A DNA stretch of 64,000 nucleotides, from NCBI GenBank assembly GCA_937928595.1, contig CALGJV010000012.1, positions 124,001 through 188,000 on the forward strand. The letters run 5' to 3'. A program made the translations under genes and the position numbers. Each line of letters opens with the position of its first letter. The stretch's first letter is position 1. This DNA is from an uncultured Phycisphaerae bacterium. GTDB taxonomy: Bacteria; Planctomycetota; Phycisphaerae; UBA1845; Fen-1342. The notes beneath the pieces are model-generated. The model worked only from the letters and a program-made list of their open reading frames with translations. It did not search any database and was not told where the DNA came from. Below, piece by piece: positions 4,596 through 26,142 of this stretch.

Positions 4596-5519
4596 ATGCA
4601 CGGCGAGCAGCGACGGACGGCGGCCTTCACCCTGATCGAGTTGCTGGTGGTCGTGGCGATCATCGCGTTGCTCATCTCGATCCTGCTACCGTCGCTCGCG
4701 CGGGCGCGGGAGCAGGCGAAGGAGGCCAAGTGCGCCGCCGGCCTGCGGAGCTTCGGGGTGGGCTTCCATACCTACGCCGGCGAGCAGCGCGACTATCTGT
4801 GCAGCGGCTCGTTCGATCCCGAGGTCAGCAACGGCCGGGACGGTCCGGTGGACCGCGTGGGGTGGGTGGCGGATCTGGTCAACGCCACGCTGGCGTTCCC
4901 AGCGACGCAGCTGTGTCCGTCGAATCCGGCCCGGTATAACCAGAAGCTCGGGGCGAATGCGGCGGGGGCGAACTCCTACACGCCCGAGCAGGCACGGGAT
5001 CTGGTGCAGCGCGGCTACAACACGAACTACACACAGGCGTGGTACATGGCCCGCACCGAGTGGAACCCGTCGCAGAACGACTATAACGTCAAGCGCGTGC
5101 GGGCCACGCGCGGGCCGTTGCAGGTTGGCCGTTGGGTGCGCGTCGGGGAGGCCCGCCTGCCGATTCTCGGCGACGGCCGAACGGATCTCGAGGACCGCGT
5201 GCTGGGCGAGCGCTCGGTCAAGACGATGACGGACGGGCCGTGGGACGGTCCGTACGGCGTGCAGAACTGGCGTGATTTCGGCCCGGCGCACGGCTTCGGC
5301 GCCTGGGTCTTCGGCAACAAGGACCACAATCGCGTGCGCGCGAACGTGCTGTTCGCGGACGGGCACGTCCGCGTGTTCGTGGACCGGGACCGCGACGGCG
5401 AGTTCGGCCTCGATACGTCGGGCGAGGTCCCGTGGCAGAAGGATCTGGACGAGGGGGCGGTTTTCGACGGCGTGCTGAGCCTGGGCCGGCGCTCGGCGGA
5501 CGCCTGGGCGCTGCAATAG
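4596..5519 (+). CDS. Prepilin-type N-terminal cleavage/methylation protein (planctomycete H-X9-DG family)
   Basis: A 307-residue pseudopilin-like protein. Residues 11-35 carry the type IV prepilin signature [20 protein letters not shown], with processing expected before the Phe by a prepilin peptidase. Near the C-terminus, HNRVRANVLFADGHVRVF gives the H-X9-DG motif that defines a large planctomycete family. The central part is a variable, probably extracellular domain with several cysteines. A GTG three bases upstream is a possible alternative start; I chose the ATG. Families of this type are numerous and scattered in planctomycete genomes, and the function of single members is unknown. Two relatives lie at 51615-52511 and 57316-58230. 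Confidence 0.88.
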   Translation: MHGEQRRTAAFTLIELLVVVAIIALLISILLPSLARAREQAKEAKCAAGLRSFGVGFHTYAGEQRDYLCSGSFDPEVSNGRDGPVDRVGWVADLVNATLAFPATQLCPSNPARYNQKLGANAAGANSYTPEQARDLVQRGYNTNYTQAWYMARTEWNPSQNDYNVKRVRATRGPLQVGRWVRVGEARLPILGDGRTDLEDRVLGERSVKTMTDGPWDGPYGVQNWRDFGPAHGFGAWVFGNKDHNRVRANVLFADGHVRVFVDRDRDGEFGLDTSGEVPWQKDLDEGAVFDGVLSLGRRSADAWALQ

Positions 5520-18207: not shown

Positions 18208-18969
18208 CTACGTCGCCCTGCTGGCCACCAGCAGCCCGAGTTGCCGGACCGTCGCCCGGAAGTCCTTGGGCACGGGCGCCTCGAACGTGAGTTCCCGCGA
18301 CTCGACGGGGTGCCCGAAGGTGATTCGCCAGGCGTGGAGGGTGAGGCGTGCGATCAGCGGGCGCTCCTCGCGCCGGCGGCTCTCGCGGTAGCCGGCCTTG
18401 AAGCGCGACAGGCGGATTTCGAGGGTCCCGCCGTAAAGGGGATCGACCCCCAGCGGGTGCCCGATCGCGGCGAGGTGCGCGCGGATCTGGTGCGTCCGGC
18501 CGGTCACGGGGCGGCACTCGAGCAGCGTGTGGCCCGCCAGGCGCTGGACGATGCGGTAGTGCGTGACGGCGGTCTGCCCGCGGTGGGGCGTGGCCTCGAT
18601 CCGGTTCGTCCGCTTGTTGAACGCCAGCCGCAGGTCGATCGTGCCGTCCTGCGCGACGTAGCCGGTCGCGATGGCCAGGTAGGTCTTCTGGACGGTCCGC
18701 GCGACGAACTGGCCGACGAGGGCGCGCTGGGCTGCGAGCGTGCGGGCGTACACGAGCACCCCGCTGGCGTCGCGGTCGAGCCGGTGCACGATCCGCAGCG
18801 CCGGGTTGTCCGCCAAAGCGGGCGCGCCGCGGAGCAGGTCGGCCACGGTGCGCTCCGTCCCGCTGCGGCCGGGTGCGGAGAGCACGCCGGGGGGCTTGTC
18901 GACCACGGCGAGGTGCTCGTCGCAGTACAACAGGGGGACGGCGGCGGGGCGCGGCGCGCGGCGGGTCAC
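18208..18969 (-). CDS. RluA-family pseudouridine synthase
   Basis: A 253-residue enzyme that isomerises uridine to pseudouridine in rRNA or tRNA. It carries the family core: LYCDEHLAVVDKPPGVLS, the catalytic-aspartate motif RIVHRLDRDASGVLVYAR, QKTYLAIATG and GRTHQIRAHLAAIGHPLGVD. No S4 domain is present at the N-terminus, so it belongs with the short RluA/TruC-like members. The GTG start at 18969 overlaps the stop of the upstream cyclase-YbbR gene (GTGA), which indicates translational coupling. The open frame extends upstream, but that part is a shadow of the YbbR gene. The target nucleotide cannot be told. Confidence 0.9.
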   Translation of the reverse strand: MTRRAPRPAAVPLLYCDEHLAVVDKPPGVLSAPGRSGTERTVADLLRGAPALADNPALRIVHRLDRDASGVLVYARTLAAQRALVGQFVARTVQKTYLAIATGYVAQDGTIDLRLAFNKRTNRIEATPHRGQTAVTHYRIVQRLAGHTLLECRPVTGRTHQIRAHLAAIGHPLGVDPLYGGTLEIRLSRFKAGYRESRRREERPLIARLTLHAWRITFGHPVESRELTFEAPVPKDFRATVRQLGLLVASRAT

Positions 18970-20888
18970 GGCGTGCCACCGGTCCGGGGCACGAGGTTGA
19001 CGCGGACCGTGCGCGTGCTGACCACCGTCACGCCCCGCGTCTTGGGCACGATCGTGACGTCGATGGTCCGCAACTGGGCCTCGCCGGCCTGGCCGATCGG
19101 CGGCAGCATGTCCGGTGTGACGCGCACGAAGGCTTCGAGGTCGGTGGCGCGCAGGTCGTCGAGGATCGCCTCCTCGCCCTGAACTTCGACGCTGATGCGC
19201 CATTCGTTCAGGTCGCTGCGACGCACGTCGTACCGCTCGAACACCTCCGGGCTGACCAGCAGCGCGACCGGCACGTTCTCGATCCGTTTCGGCAGCGCCA
19301 CGACCCGGAGCTGAATGCGGACGTCGCGGGGCTCCACGCGCAGCGCGGTCAGCGGCTGCGAGCGGTACGGCACCATGATCTGCCGGTCGAGCCGCACGTG
19401 CTCGAAGACCTGCGCCGGGCCGGGCTTCAGGTCGGCCAGTTCGTTGCCGAAGATCGCCCGGACCGTGCCCTCGAACCGCTCTCCGCCCGGCGGCAGGTCT
19501 CCGGCGCGGAGCGTGGCGGTGGCCTCGGGCGGGCGGATTTCCTCGATGACGGCGCGGACCCGGCCGGTGTCGGGCACGATGCGCACGGGCAGCACGGCGG
19601 TCTGCACGACCGTGAACTGCAACTCGCGCGGGTCAACGTTGGTGACGCGCAGGCCGCGCGCGCCGATTTCCCGCTGGTTTTCGATAATCGCGCGGATCTC
19701 TCGCGGGCCGAGCGAGAAGCGCCCCGGCGCGTAGTCGTCGGGCAGGCTCCACGTCATCTGCAACGGCTGATTCGTCGTCTCGAACCGCAGTCGATCGATC
19801 GCCCGCACGGGCCCGCTGAGCGTGACCGTGAAGGGCGCGGCGGGGGCCTCCAGCGCGTCACCGGGCGGGGTGGGGCGCGGCCAGGCGGCCTGCGTGGCCG
19901 GCGTGTCCAGCTCGACCAGCCGCGTCGTGTCCTCGTGGCGGAGGACCAGCCGCACCTTAACGCTCGCCTCCGACGACGTGGCCTGATCCGCGAGGTACCA
20001 GATCACGCATGTCAACGGAACGACCACCGCGAGGCGGGCCAACGGTCTGCGGAACCGGGCTCCTTGTCTTCCGGACCCGCCGGAGAGCGCGGTCGGCCGC
20101 GGTGCGAGGCGCGTATTGAGCTCCTCGGTCAGGTCATCCAGCGAAAGGTAGCGGGTCAACTTGCCGCCGTCGGCGAGCGAGACGACGCCCGTCTCCTCGG
20201 ACACCACCAGCACCAGCGCGTCGGTCTCGTAGCTCATGCCGACTGCGGCGAGGTGTCGGCTGCCCAGCGCCGCGTCGAGCTCGTCGCTTTCCGCGGACGG
20301 GAACTGGCAGTTGGCCGCGACGACGCGCGTGTCGTGGATGATCACCCCCAGGTCGTGCAGCGGCGAGCCGGGGTAGAAGATCGAGTTCAGCAGGTTCGCC
20401 GACACCTGGGCGTTGAGCAGGGTGCCGTTCTCGGCCCAACCCGTCAGGTCGACCTGCCGCTGAATCGCGATCAGGGCCCCGAACTTGTTCCGCGACAGAT
20501 ACCCGGCCGACTTGACCAGCGCGGCGACGACTTGCGACTGCGGGGCGCTGCCCAGGCGGAACCGCACGTCGCCCATGCGAATCACCGCCCGGCGAAGCTC
20601 CGGCTGGAACGCCACCAGCGCGATGAACGCCAGCCCGAACAGCACGTAGCTGTACAGCAGGTCCAGCCGCACCAGCTCGTACCGCGCCGCCAGGACGCGC
20701 ACCGCCACCGTCGCCACGATCAGGATGACCAGCACCCCCCGCAGCGGTCGCGTGCCGCGCGTACCTTGCAGCACGCCGACCACCCAGTTCACGCACAGCC
20801 CGATCAGCAGCAGCTCGACGAGCACGACCGGCAGCACGTACGCGTCGCTGCCCAGGCGGTACAGGAAGCCGAACAGGGTGCGTTCCAT
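18966..20888 (-). CDS. cdaA: Fused diadenylate cyclase (CdaA-type) and YbbR-domain (CdaR-type) protein
   Basis: One 640-residue open frame joins two proteins that are normally separate neighbours. Residues 15-95 hold three membrane helices as in CdaA. Residues 118-250 are the DisA_N cyclase domain: NKFGALIAIQRQVDL, NSIFYPGSPLHDLGVIIH and SYETDALVLVVSEETG. A further membrane helix (about 283-300) leads to external YbbR-like repeats up to the end. CdaA makes the second messenger c-di-AMP, and CdaR/YbbR is its membrane regulator. The usual DGA motif reads DLG (Asp179), and RHR reads RHL (211-213), so activity is uncertain. The ATG at 20888 is the natural CdaA start. The rluA-type gene overlaps the stop. 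Confidence 0.88.
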   Translation of the reverse strand: MERTLFGFLYRLGSDAYVLPVVLVELLLIGLCVNWVVGVLQGTRGTRPLRGVLVILIVATVAVRVLAARYELVRLDLLYSYVLFGLAFIALVAFQPELRRAVIRMGDVRFRLGSAPQSQVVAALVKSAGYLSRNKFGALIAIQRQVDLTGWAENGTLLNAQVSANLLNSIFYPGSPLHDLGVIIHDTRVVAANCQFPSAESDELDAALGSRHLAAVGMSYETDALVLVVSEETGVVSLADGGKLTRYLSLDDLTEELNTRLAPRPTALSGGSGRQGARFRRPLARLAVVVPLTCVIWYLADQATSSEASVKVRLVLRHEDTTRLVELDTPATQAAWPRPTPPGDALEAPAAPFTVTLSGPVRAIDRLRFETTNQPLQMTWSLPDDYAPGRFSLGPREIRAIIENQREIGARGLRVTNVDPRELQFTVVQTAVLPVRIVPDTGRVRAVIEEIRPPEATATLRAGDLPPGGERFEGTVRAIFGNELADLKPGPAQVFEHVRLDRQIMVPYRSQPLTALRVEPRDVRIQLRVVALPKRIENVPVALLVSPEVFERYDVRRSDLNEWRISVEVQGEEAILDDLRATDLEAFVRVTPDMLPPIGQAGEAQLRTIDVTIVPKTRGVTVVSTRTVRVNLVPRTGGTP

Positions 20889-20969: not shown

Positions 20970-21737
20970 ATGCTGACTCCGGCCGAACACGACCGTTTGC
21001 GCGAGAATCTCGCCGGAGTGCGGGCGCGGATCGTCGCGGCCGCCGGGCGCGCCGGCCGTTCCCCCGACGAGGTGCGCCTCGTGGCCGTCACGAAGTACGT
21101 CGGCCCGGACGTGATCCGCGCGCTGGTGGCGCTGGGGGTACCGGACATCGGCGAGAGCCGCGTCCAGCAGCTCGTGGAGCGGGCGCGGGTCTGCGGGCCC
21201 GCCGTGACGGGCTGGCCCGGCGACGCGCCCGACCCGGCCTCCGTGCCGCGCTGGCACATGATCGGTCACCTCCAGCGGAACAAGGTCAAGCCGCTCCTGG
21301 GAGCGGCCCGCATCGTGCACTCGCTGGATTCGGAGCGGCTGGCCGAGGCGCTGGAGCAGCAGGCGGCCGCGGCCGGCCTCGGCGTGGACGTGCTGATCGA
21401 GGTCAACGTGCCGGGGGAAGCGACCAAGACGGGCATCGCGGCGGACGTCGTGGCGCCGCTGGCGGAGTGCGTCGGCCGGTGTCCCCACTTGCGGCTGCGC
21501 GGACTCATGACGATGGCGCCGTATGATCCGAACCCCGAGGCGTCGCGGCCGCACTTCGCGCGGCTGCGCGCCTTGCTCGCGGACCTGCGGCAGCGGGGCG
21601 TCGTGGGGCCGCTCTGTGCCCACCTGTCGATGGGCATGAGCCAGGACTACGCCGTGGCGGTGGAGGAGGGGGCGACGCTGGTGCGGGTCGGGTCGGCGCT
21701 GTTCGAGGGGCTGCCGACCACGGATCCGCGCGGGTAG
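20970..21737 (+). CDS. yggS: YggS/PROSC-family pyridoxal-phosphate homeostasis protein
   Basis: A 255-residue single-domain TIM-barrel PLP protein. The cofactor lysine is Lys42 in LVAVTKYVGPDVI. Other family signatures are PDIGESRVQQL, RWHMIGHLQRNKVK, DVLIEVNVPGEATKTGI and HLSMGMSQDYAVAVEEGATLVRVGSALFEG, cut here only for length. YggS binds PLP and keeps the free cofactor and amino- and keto-acid pools in balance; it has no proven catalytic reaction. It is divergent from the cyclase fusion (81 bases between starts) and is followed at 9 bases by a small membrane protein. Confidence 0.94.
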   Translation: MLTPAEHDRLRENLAGVRARIVAAAGRAGRSPDEVRLVAVTKYVGPDVIRALVALGVPDIGESRVQQLVERARVCGPAVTGWPGDAPDPASVPRWHMIGHLQRNKVKPLLGAARIVHSLDSERLAEALEQQAAAAGLGVDVLIEVNVPGEATKTGIAADVVAPLAECVGRCPHLRLRGLMTMAPYDPNPEASRPHFARLRALLADLRQRGVVGPLCAHLSMGMSQDYAVAVEEGATLVRVGSALFEGLPTTDPRG

Positions 21738-23211: not shown

Positions 23212-23457
23212 TCATGGTTGCGCGGCCGCTTCGCCAAGCCCATCAAGCAGCGCGCAATCAATCGGTTGCCCGTCCCGGAAGCACTGCCGCTCGATGACGA
23301 CGATCGGTGGCAGGGTCAGCGCCCGCACTTGACTGAAGAGCGCACCGGCCGCGAACGACAGCACACTCGTGCCCAACAGCGTGCAACCGCAGAGCGGGAC
23401 GGACAGGAGCGCCAGCACCGTCAGTAGCACCGCACGCGGAACCCTCGGAGCGATCAT
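23212..23457 (-). CDS. Small predicted lipoprotein
   Basis: An 81-residue protein whose ATG overlaps the stop of the upstream gene (ATGA). A hydrophobic signal with a lipobox-like end, LLSVPLCGC, would place the modified cysteine near residue 23. The mature part is short, with hydrophobic SFAAGALFSQVRALTL and then VIERQCFRDGQPIDCALLDG, containing two cysteines that could form a disulfide. No family is recognised. Translational coupling to the large surface protein upstream suggests they work together at the envelope. Confidence 0.55.
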   Translation of the reverse strand: MIAPRVPRAVLLTVLALLSVPLCGCTLLGTSVLSFAAGALFSQVRALTLPPIVVIERQCFRDGQPIDCALLDGLGEAAAQP

Positions 23458-25514
23458 GGCTTCTCCCGGCAATCGCGACTCCCGTGAGGGCTTGGGCCCG
23501 CGGTGCGCGGCTGCGACCGCGACGCGGCCGGATCCCCGAAGCGCGTGGCCGCGTGGCCGCGCCGCAGTCGTTTCATCGCCACGAGCGAGGTGGTTGTCGC
23601 GGCCAGGTATGCGAGCGGAACGGCACCGCAGACCTGTACGGGCAGGAAGTACCTCGTCACCGTGATGACCTCGTCGTAGATTGGCCTCGGCCCCGTGTCG
23701 CCGGCCTCGACCGGAGGATTCGGACCCGCGGGGGGCGGATCGGACGGGGGCAGAACACCCGTCGGCGGCGGCTCGGGGCCCGTTTCGTCGGCGGGATCAT
23801 CATCGAGGTTCGTGACGCTGACGTCCGCGGCGTCCAGCCCATCGTAAGCCGGGTCCGTGCTGACCGCCGGCAGGGTGACCACGTTGTAGGCCGTGTCCCC
23901 GTCGGCCACAGCATCGTCAACGCCGGTGACGGTCACGGCCTGCGGCGTGCTCCAGTCGGCGGCCGTGAAGGTCAGGGCGTCCGGGGCGACGGTGCCCTCG
24001 GTCGCGTCGGAGCTGCTCAGCGTAATGACCACCGCGGCGGTGGGCTCGCTGGTGAGCTGGACGGTGAACGTGGCCGTGCCGCCGGCCTCGGTCGTGACGA
24101 GGCCGCTTACGGGACTGACGGTCACGCCCGCCGTGTCGTCGTCCGTGATGGTCAGGGTGTGCACCGAGGTCGCGCCCAGGATCGCACCGGTGGGGCTTCC
24201 CAGCGTGATGATCACGGTCTCGTCGCTCTCGTCGATGTCGTTGTCGATCACCGTCACGATCATATCCACGCCGGTGCTGCCGGCGGGGATCGTCAACGGG
24301 CCGGCGGCAGCGGTGTAGTCGGCGGGGTCTGACGCCGTGCCGCCGATGCTGAACGGCACTTCCACGTCGTAGGGCATTGCGGCCGAGAGTTGTACGCGCA
24401 CCGTAACTACCCCGGCGTCTTCGGCTGCTTCCGAGACCGCGGCCGTGAACGTGACCGTCGGGACCGACACGGGGCTGCCGAGCGCGTAGAACGTGCTCGG
24501 CGAGGACTGGTTGTTGTACTCGGTCGCGATCCACTGGGCGGTTCGAACCGCGCTCGAGATCCGGATTTCGTCCAGGATGCCCTGGTAGCGCCCGTCGACG
24601 CCGTTTCCGATCTGAAGCGTGCCGGTGTTGGTGAAAGAAGCGGAGGAACTGCTGGAGGCATTAAGCACGCCGTTGATGTACAGCCGCATGACTCCGGCAT
24701 CGGCCACGCCGTCGACCTTGTACCACTGCCCGATGTTGTACGAGACGGTGCTGGTCGCCCACACGCTCGAGTTCTGCTTGCCCCACCGGATCTTGGTGCC
24801 GTCCTGCCACAGAGCGTAGCCGTTGGCGCCCCCCTTTTCGAGCAGGTTCGACTGCTTCGACGTGCCGAAGCGGAACCACGCCGAGACCGTGCCGTTGTTG
24901 GTGAGCTCGATCGAGGTCGCGGCCGATACGCGAATCACGTGCGAGCTCCCGTTGAAGCTCTGTCCCTTGTGGATCACGCCGTTGACCTGCGCCGGGTCGG
25001 TGCCGCCGGAGCTGTGGTTCGCGTTGCTGGTCGAGTCGAGGTAGGGGGCTGCGCTCTGGCTTAGGTGCCACACCGCTCCGTAGTTCGCGCTCCACACGCC
25101 GCTTGCGTTCTGCTGGTTCGGGGCGGCCGGGTTGCCGTAGTACAGGTACAGGGCCGTGTCGCTCGTGGACGACAGGGTCGGCACCTTCACCCAGGCCACC
25201 AGCGCCCCGGTTGTCGGCGTGTAGCTCTCGATCTCGTGGTCGAGCTTCGTGACGCCGTCGCCCGCAGTGAAGAGGATGTCCGCGCCCGCCGCCTGCGCCG
25301 CCCCCGCCAGGTCGGCGTCGCTCGTCAGCTGTACCAACACCGGGAACGCCGTGAGGCTCCCGGCGACCTGGGCCGCCTGGATCGTGAGCGGCTTGCGATA
25401 CGGCCATGCGACGTCGTACCAGCCGTCGGCCACGGCCACTGCCGGTGTCAGGAACCCCCCGGCCAGGATGGCGGCGGTTGCACCGACCCGCACCGCCCAC
25501 CGTGCCGTTCGCAT
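23454..25514 (-). CDS. Exported DUF2341 / LamG-like / Calx-beta surface protein
   Basis: A 686-residue secreted protein. Signal peptide: residues 1-30 (ending AVAVADG). Residues 31-140 match DUF2341 (WPYRKPLTIQ, FPVLVQLTSDADL, ALYLYYGNP). Residues about 150-325 form a LamG/concanavalin-like domain (AVWHLSQS, GTVSAWFRFG, GILDEIRISSAVRTAQWIAT). Two beta-sandwich segments follow, the first a Calx-beta motif (GTASDPADYT and TVIDNDIDESDETVII). A Pro-rich spacer leads to a hydrophobic C-terminal helix with basic residues after it (AVPLAYLAATTTSLVAMKRL). It is probably a surface adhesin or matrix protein. The ATG was chosen over an upstream TTG because GGAAGAG precedes it. Confidence 0.8.
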   Translation of the reverse strand: MRTARWAVRVGATAAILAGGFLTPAVAVADGWYDVAWPYRKPLTIQAAQVAGSLTAFPVLVQLTSDADLAGAAQAAGADILFTAGDGVTKLDHEIESYTPTTGALVAWVKVPTLSSTSDTALYLYYGNPAAPNQQNASGVWSANYGAVWHLSQSAAPYLDSTSNANHSSGGTDPAQVNGVIHKGQSFNGSSHVIRVSAATSIELTNNGTVSAWFRFGTSKQSNLLEKGGANGYALWQDGTKIRWGKQNSSVWATSTVSYNIGQWYKVDGVADAGVMRLYINGVLNASSSSSASFTNTGTLQIGNGVDGRYQGILDEIRISSAVRTAQWIATEYNNQSSPSTFYALGSPVSVPTVTFTAAVSEAAEDAGVVTVRVQLSAAMPYDVEVPFSIGGTASDPADYTAAAGPLTIPAGSTGVDMIVTVIDNDIDESDETVIITLGSPTGAILGATSVHTLTITDDDTAGVTVSPVSGLVTTEAGGTATFTVQLTSEPTAAVVITLSSSDATEGTVAPDALTFTAADWSTPQAVTVTGVDDAVADGDTAYNVVTLPAVSTDPAYDGLDAADVSVTNLDDDPADETGPEPPPTGVLPPSDPPPAGPNPPVEAGDTGPRPIYDEVITVTRYFLPVQVCGAVPLAYLAATTTSLVAMKRLRRGHAATRFGDPAASRSQPRTAGPSPHGSRDCREKP

Positions 25515-26142
25515 CTGCTCTTCCGTCAACCGCGCGCGGTGAACTTGGGGCGCATTCCGCGCATAACCGGCCGTGACGCAATCCCTTGCGCCCTACCGGA
25601 TGTATCGGCTTGGGGGACCTGGGTTTGCGGTAACGGTGGCCCGAACGTTTCCGCTTTCGAGCCGTTTATTGGCGGCTTGCTGGTTTCCGGACTTGACGAA
25701 CGGTCCCTGTTCCCCGAGCGGCGGTCGCGAGTCGCGCCGCTGATCCGGTGAACCATCGCGATGGTGCCAGTTCGTCACCGCTTGGGCTGATAATGCACCT
25801 GAACCCAGAGCAACCAGCGGATCTCGATGTTGTCGCGTGTCGGCGCAACACCGACTTCGATTAGGCCCGAAGATCGCTCTTGGAATCCGCGCGGCATTCA
25901 AGGGACGGCGACGAGAGCGCAAAAACCGCAGACCGCCCGACGCGGCGGAAAGGCGCCATAAGTGCCATTTGAAGCGTGGCTTATGAAAACAGCTGGTCTA
26001 TCTTGCGAGTGCCGGCCGCAAGCGCGATGGTCGCTGCGGATCACGGAAAGCGATTCGGTCCGGGGACGGCCTATCACGGTCGATGGCGGGTTGCTATACT
26101 CGCTCAGCTGGGAATGAAACCCATTCGGTGAGGAGGAAAGGC
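25515..26142. other. Intergenic region between divergent surface-protein genes
   Basis: 628 bases separate two divergently transcribed exported proteins. Open frames here lack family resemblance and look like chance readings. The right end holds an extended -10 promoter for the HAF-repeat gene. A short dyad, CATAAG (25957-25962) with CTTATG (25980-25985), lies in the most AT-rich part. Nothing else is supported. Confidence 0.55.
26092..26100 (+). promoter_or_regulatory. Extended -10 promoter element for the HAF-repeat gene
   Basis: TGCTATACT gives the TGn extension plus TATACT, 43 bases before the ATG. No good -35 is present, which is tolerated by extended -10 promoters. Confidence 0.45.

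Follow-up and report, generated by a model that had tools for sequence, protein, structure and literature searches.

The window, a 64,000-nucleotide stretch from an uncultured Phycisphaerae bacterium, carries a fused cdaA-cdaR gene of 640 codons at positions 18966 to 20888 on the minus strand. The gene is read from 20888 to 18966, with an ATG start and a TGA stop, and the plus-strand translation of this interval is meaningless. CdaR is an envelope protein that normally regulates the cyclic di-AMP synthase CdaA. An RluA-family pseudouridine synthase gene (18208 to 18969, minus strand) lies downstream, as it does in most loci of the same family; the overlap with the stop codon of the fusion reported in the earlier note is real and amounts to only 4 nucleotides, in which the likely GTG start of rluA shares GTGA with the TGA stop. 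A divergent gene for a YggS-family PLP enzyme (20970 to 21737, plus strand) is the other neighbor conserved in the family. In the cdaA-cdaR-glmM operon, glmM adjoins cdaR, whereas the RluA gene takes that place in the window; glmM is not adjacent to the fusion, and the glmM-like genes of the window genome, which score below the cut-off, are found on other contigs. Elsewhere in the window, a minus-strand frame at 23454 to 25529 containing DUF2341, Laminin_G_3, and Calx-beta domains likely encodes a surface or secreted protein.

The N-terminal part of the fusion resembles CdaA. A membrane region at approximately residues 19 to 100 (20589 to 20834, minus strand), identified from AlphaFold2 secondary structure, is predicted to contain three helices (residues 19 to 41, 47 to 70, and 73 to 94; mean pLDDT of 80.5 for the full-length model) and has no match to Pfam CdaA_N. 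It is followed by a diadenylate cyclase (DAC) domain at residues 127 to 244 (20157 to 20510, minus strand; Pfam PF02457, E value of 6.7e-34), and the DAC part of the model aligns with Listeria monocytogenes CdaA (8c4j) with a VIA Z score of 27.0 and an rmsd of 1.3 over 152 residues. Against NCBIfam TIGR00159, the CdaA equivalog model, the protein scores 174.3 bits, below the cut-off of 188.8. With the CdaA/DacA proteins of Listeria, Bacillus, and Staphylococcus it shares the three N-terminal helices, the DAC fold (Z scores of 25 to 27), approximately 34 to 42% identity, the HD dipeptide, the first arginine and the histidine of RHR, and the SEET metal motif. It differs from them in running on into CdaR in one chain and in having HDLG for HDGA, RHL for RHR, serine for threonine before RH, and Q195 where Listeria CdaA has the stacking Tyr187.

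A linker of approximately 20 residues, modeled with a pLDDT of ~51, leads into a fourth predicted membrane helix (residues 275 to 303; 19980 to 20066, minus strand) that corresponds to the CdaR membrane anchor, and from there into three YbbR-like beta domains (residues 304 to 640; 18969 to 19979, minus strand) recognized by structure and HMM matches. The last domain of the full-length model matches the YbbR domain of lmo2119 (Z score of 8.9). When the C-terminal part was modeled alone (pLDDT of 88.9), the top seven structure matches were all YbbR proteins (Z scores of 5.6 to 8.8); 4qdy (SP_1560; Z score of 8.8) covers residues 1 to 233 of this model and 5hqh (lmo2119; Z score of 8.7) covers residues 232 to 340, and coverage of successive parts in this way fits three YbbR-like domains. 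Because these Z scores are moderate, more weight is placed on the sequence evidence for homology to CdaR. Pfam YbbR has no match in the window protein and matches 6 of 26 family members at E values of up to 1 (best, 2.5e-4). In nearly every other Phycisphaerae locus, the gene that follows cdaA is matched by the C-terminal columns of an HMM built for the family, with E values reaching ~1e-34, and the HMM also weakly matches one Clostridia and one Lentisphaeria gene, both of which (L122 and L129) are YbbR by Pfam. The structure matches, the YbbR matches in relatives, and the HMM matches to separate cdaR genes support the identification of the C-terminal half as a CdaR/YbbR homolog; the single uninterrupted CdaA-YbbR frame described in the earlier note is upheld, although Pfam YbbR is silent on it. 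Like CdaR/YbbR proteins such as lmo2119 and SP_1560, which relatives encode right after cdaA, the C-terminal half consists of a membrane anchor and, after it, YbbR-like domains in the periplasm; it differs in lacking a start of its own and in having diverged beyond the reach of the Pfam YbbR model.

The full-length protein is encoded in one stop-free frame in 26 of the 27 genomes of the window genome's family, and the remaining genome (G017) contains only a DAC fragment at a contig edge. An open frame of this length in so many genomes rules out both a chance frame and an assembly error; the latter had been considered in the earlier note, in case close relatives should carry separate genes, and the same-family relatives are instead fused as well. 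Elsewhere in the order, families mostly keep cdaA and cdaR as two adjacent genes, in agreement with the earlier description of the usual arrangement. The two genes often overlap by 4 nucleotides or share a reading frame with only a few bases between them, so that a minor change would suffice to fuse them. In a tree of CdaA-type sequences, the CdaA part of the fused family groups as a single clade (100/100) that falls within the Phycisphaerae CdaA sequences, a result that holds after the motif columns are masked, and this placement indicates that the fusion protein descends from CdaA. The separate pairs of other Phycisphaerae share with the fusion a D[L/M][G/A] motif, Q195, and a homologous CdaR; they differ in being two genes with RHR intact, and several of their loci have folP before cdaA-cdaR or a gene of the aldehyde dehydrogenase family after it, rather than the YggS and RluA neighbors seen here. 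One such Phycisphaerae-type pair (L108) occurs in a record titled Leptolyngbya sp. PLA1, which is probably a mislabeled planctomycete genome.

Across 198 genomes of the class, the full-length, stop-free homologs among the matches listed came only from the window genome's family. The idea that fusion is unique to this family was nonetheless rejected after inspection of long frames, and the search for fusions in other planctomycetes proposed in the earlier note proved productive. A locus from another Phycisphaerae family (L169) clearly encodes a second fusion, with a 665-amino-acid frame matching the DAC part at model positions 5 to 276 and CdaR at 269 to 598 (E value of 3e-15) and with the motifs DMG and RHR. 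Two further loci elsewhere in Planctomycetota (L156 and L160) probably encode fusions, and three more (L158, L159, and L161) are suggestive of them; the long frames inspected were among the matches listed, and there are thus at least this many. The clear and probable cases likewise consist of CdaA, a fourth helix, and a CdaR-like part in one frame, but they belong to other lineages and have RHR intact, with DGA also intact outside the Phycisphaerae. In the non-planctomycete loci from the GTDB scan, the cyclase and a CdaR match were never seen in one frame, and no description of a CdaA-YbbR fusion was found in the titles, abstracts, and passages of the literature consulted.

Both substitutions reported in the earlier note are present in the sequence and in the alignment. 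HDLGV at residues 178 to 182 (20343 to 20357, minus strand) replaces HDGAV, and GSRHL at residues 209 to 213 (20250 to 20264, minus strand) replaces GTRHR. The protein therefore departs from the HDGA signature, with H178 and D179 kept and L180 and G181 in place of glycine and alanine, and from the GXRHRXA signature, with GSRHLAA retaining the first arginine (R211) and H212. The metal-coordinating SEET motif (S230, E231, E232, and T233) is present. In a survey of 133 distinct aligned sequences, 72 from Phycisphaerae and 61 from elsewhere, S230 and E231 are invariant throughout, and within the family H178, D179, R211, H212, S230, and E231 are the same in each of the 27 distinct sequences. D-[LM]-[GA] together with Gln195 occurs in 72 of 72 Phycisphaerae sequences and is absent from the others, all 61 of which have D-G. 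The DGA motif is thus altered as proposed, but the change is not specific to the fusion; it is found in every unfused Phycisphaerae cyclase examined, where RHR is intact.

RHL, in contrast, is confined to the fused family. The 20 distinct sequences with RHL all have M218 and Y220, whereas the 7 fused sequences with RHR have L218 and alanine, glutamine, serine, or leucine at position 220. According to the tree, RHL arose once, within the fused clade (100/96, or 98/94 when the motif columns are masked). Residues 213 and 220 are seven apart on one predicted helix (residues 210 to 222 of the AlphaFold2 model), which makes a coupled packing change between them plausible. Fusion as the cause of the motif changes was rejected, since D[L/M][G/A] is present in Phycisphaerae that lack the fusion and RHR is intact in the other fusions; the DGA change, the RHL change, and the fusion are separate evolutionary events rather than one package.

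The altered motifs could be taken to mean that the protein, with its DLG and RHL, is a catalytically inactive ("dead") cyclase serving as a sensor of ATP or c-di-AMP coupled to the YbbR domains, in line with the question raised in the earlier note of whether c-di-AMP is made or only sensed. RHR and DGA are described as required, and conversion of RHR to AAA abolishes the activity of DisA (PMC3328451) and likewise that of CdaS. Since both mutants are triple-alanine replacements, the role of the second arginine is not isolated by them, and no single mutant of this residue was found in the parts of the literature searched. In Leptospira CdaA, alanine at the DGA aspartate or at the first RHR arginine yields a dead enzyme and the serine equivalent to S230 is partly important (PMC12974146); all three equivalents are invariant in the fused family, which argues against a dead domain. 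Mycobacterium tuberculosis DisA keeps its activity when the DGA glycine is changed to alanine (PMC3328451), and leucine at this position is a larger change than that. The DAC domain is also under strong purifying selection in RHL members: of the two RHL pairs that are closest, one has a dN/dS of 0.06 and the other of 0.00, the remaining pairs being too saturated to read. The fusion is the sole DAC in the window genome and the only one over the cut-off in most relatives, yet the genome encodes a PgpH-type protein of 770 amino acids with 7TMR-HDED, 7TM, and HD domains (the PgpH 7TM domain is present in 25 of 27 family genomes) and contains a c-di-AMP riboswitch (48.4 bits; gathering score, 38). 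That riboswitch (L147:4423-4594, minus strand) has no recognizable gene directly downstream and is oriented toward the 3' end of an opposite-strand gene for a MacB-type permease. In RHL relatives, c-di-AMP riboswitches that exceed the gathering score and have conserved cores lie upstream of trkH (G013, a close relative) and of Band-7 genes (G015 and G022), and none of these three genomes has a second DAC over the cut-off. Were the cyclase dead, a riboswitch and a phosphodiesterase would be kept without any maker of the signal, which makes a dead sensor unlikely; together with the occurrence of the DGA change in every unfused Phycisphaerae CdaA examined, this leads us to regard that reading as quite improbable.

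The remodeled pocket, with leucine or methionine for the DGA glycine, Q195, and S210 for threonine, might alternatively make another cyclic dinucleotide or a linear product. The fixation of Q195 and D[L/M][G/A] in the Phycisphaerae, and nowhere else in the survey, speaks for this reading, but the presence in these genomes of c-di-AMP riboswitches with conserved cores speaks against it. CdaA recognizes adenine through the main chain of Leu188 (PMC11066881), and changes in side chains could therefore leave adenine recognition intact; we give the reading of a different product the least credence. A broader proposal, that the Phycisphaerae DAC site (D[L/M][G/A], Q195, serine or alanine at 210, and in one clade RHL with M218 and Y220) cyclizes differently or takes other nucleotides under direct periplasmic control by the attached YbbR sensor, is doubtful to much the same degree as a dead sensor. 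It is also conceivable that the long frame, although genuine, gives rise to two proteins that act as separate CdaA and CdaR, produced either from an internal start or through cleavage of the linker by a protease. In favor of this reading, the linker is variable (23% mean identity) and modeled with low confidence, but no internal ATG in it is conserved across 26 sequences, so one polypeptide is the simplest product, and the frame has been kept open in 26 genomes although relatives manage with separate genes. Production of two proteins is unlikely, if somewhat less so than the foregoing readings.

We consider it likely that the fusion is a membrane diadenylate cyclase that produces c-di-AMP and carries its CdaR regulator in the same chain; its activity, its product, and the direction of signaling are inferred. 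Counted against an active cyclase are the changes in both CdaA motifs, the TIGR00159 score under the cut-off, and the genome's own riboswitch without a downstream gene. Because it lacks two signature motifs and falls below a curated cut-off, the protein is called a CdaA-descended variant, one that most likely works like CdaA, rather than a standard member. In the proposed mechanism, helices 1 to 3 and the cytoplasmic DAC domain would form the CdaA part, and the flexible linker would lead through helix 4 to three YbbR domains exported to the periplasm. These domains may sense the state of the envelope and pass it via helix-helix contacts to the DAC domains, which would pair face to face to make c-di-AMP from ATP, with DLG and RHL as tolerated substitutions in a working enzyme. 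In CdaA, the contact with CdaR has been placed at the membrane region, and face-to-face pairing of DAC domains yields the product (discussed in PMC8573169). The single chain would replace the adjacent, often translationally coupled cdaA-cdaR pair and fix the ratio at 1:1. Within the family, the core of helix 4 (residues 285 to 303) is conserved as strongly as the DAC domain, with a mean identity for the helix of 0.71 compared to 0.23 for the linker and 0.30 to 0.37 for the YbbR domains, a pattern that fits a mechanism in which the helix-bundle coupling is conserved and the periplasmic sensor varies.

CdaA and CdaR appear to have become fused in nature more than once, which is evolutionary evidence of the two proteins acting as one unit and bears on how CdaR controls CdaA; such fusions also offer a ready 1:1 construct for structural work. 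Their motif variants probe how much of the textbook DGA and RHR signatures a working cyclase requires. Activity of the enzyme would mean that neither the glycine of DGA nor the second arginine of RHR is indispensable, which would affect the annotation of DAC proteins and the practice of calling them dead.

Several other features were observed in these genomes. Three c-di-AMP riboswitches (L152:2506-2675, L153:3247-3414, and L154:2332-2515) are located directly upstream of Band 7/SPFH frames of 722 to 787 amino acids; to our knowledge, Band 7/SPFH genes are not a familiar target of this riboswitch. Just downstream of the Band 7 gene in the first of these loci are two matches to the Acido-Lenti-1 RNA on opposite strands (L152:5224-5269 and 5395-5440). 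Two genomes of the same family, G009 (L174) and G010 (L175), contain a second DAC-like gene, with frames of 334 and 307 amino acids, in which DGA is intact, RHQ or RHA replaces RHR, and SQSTG replaces SEETG.
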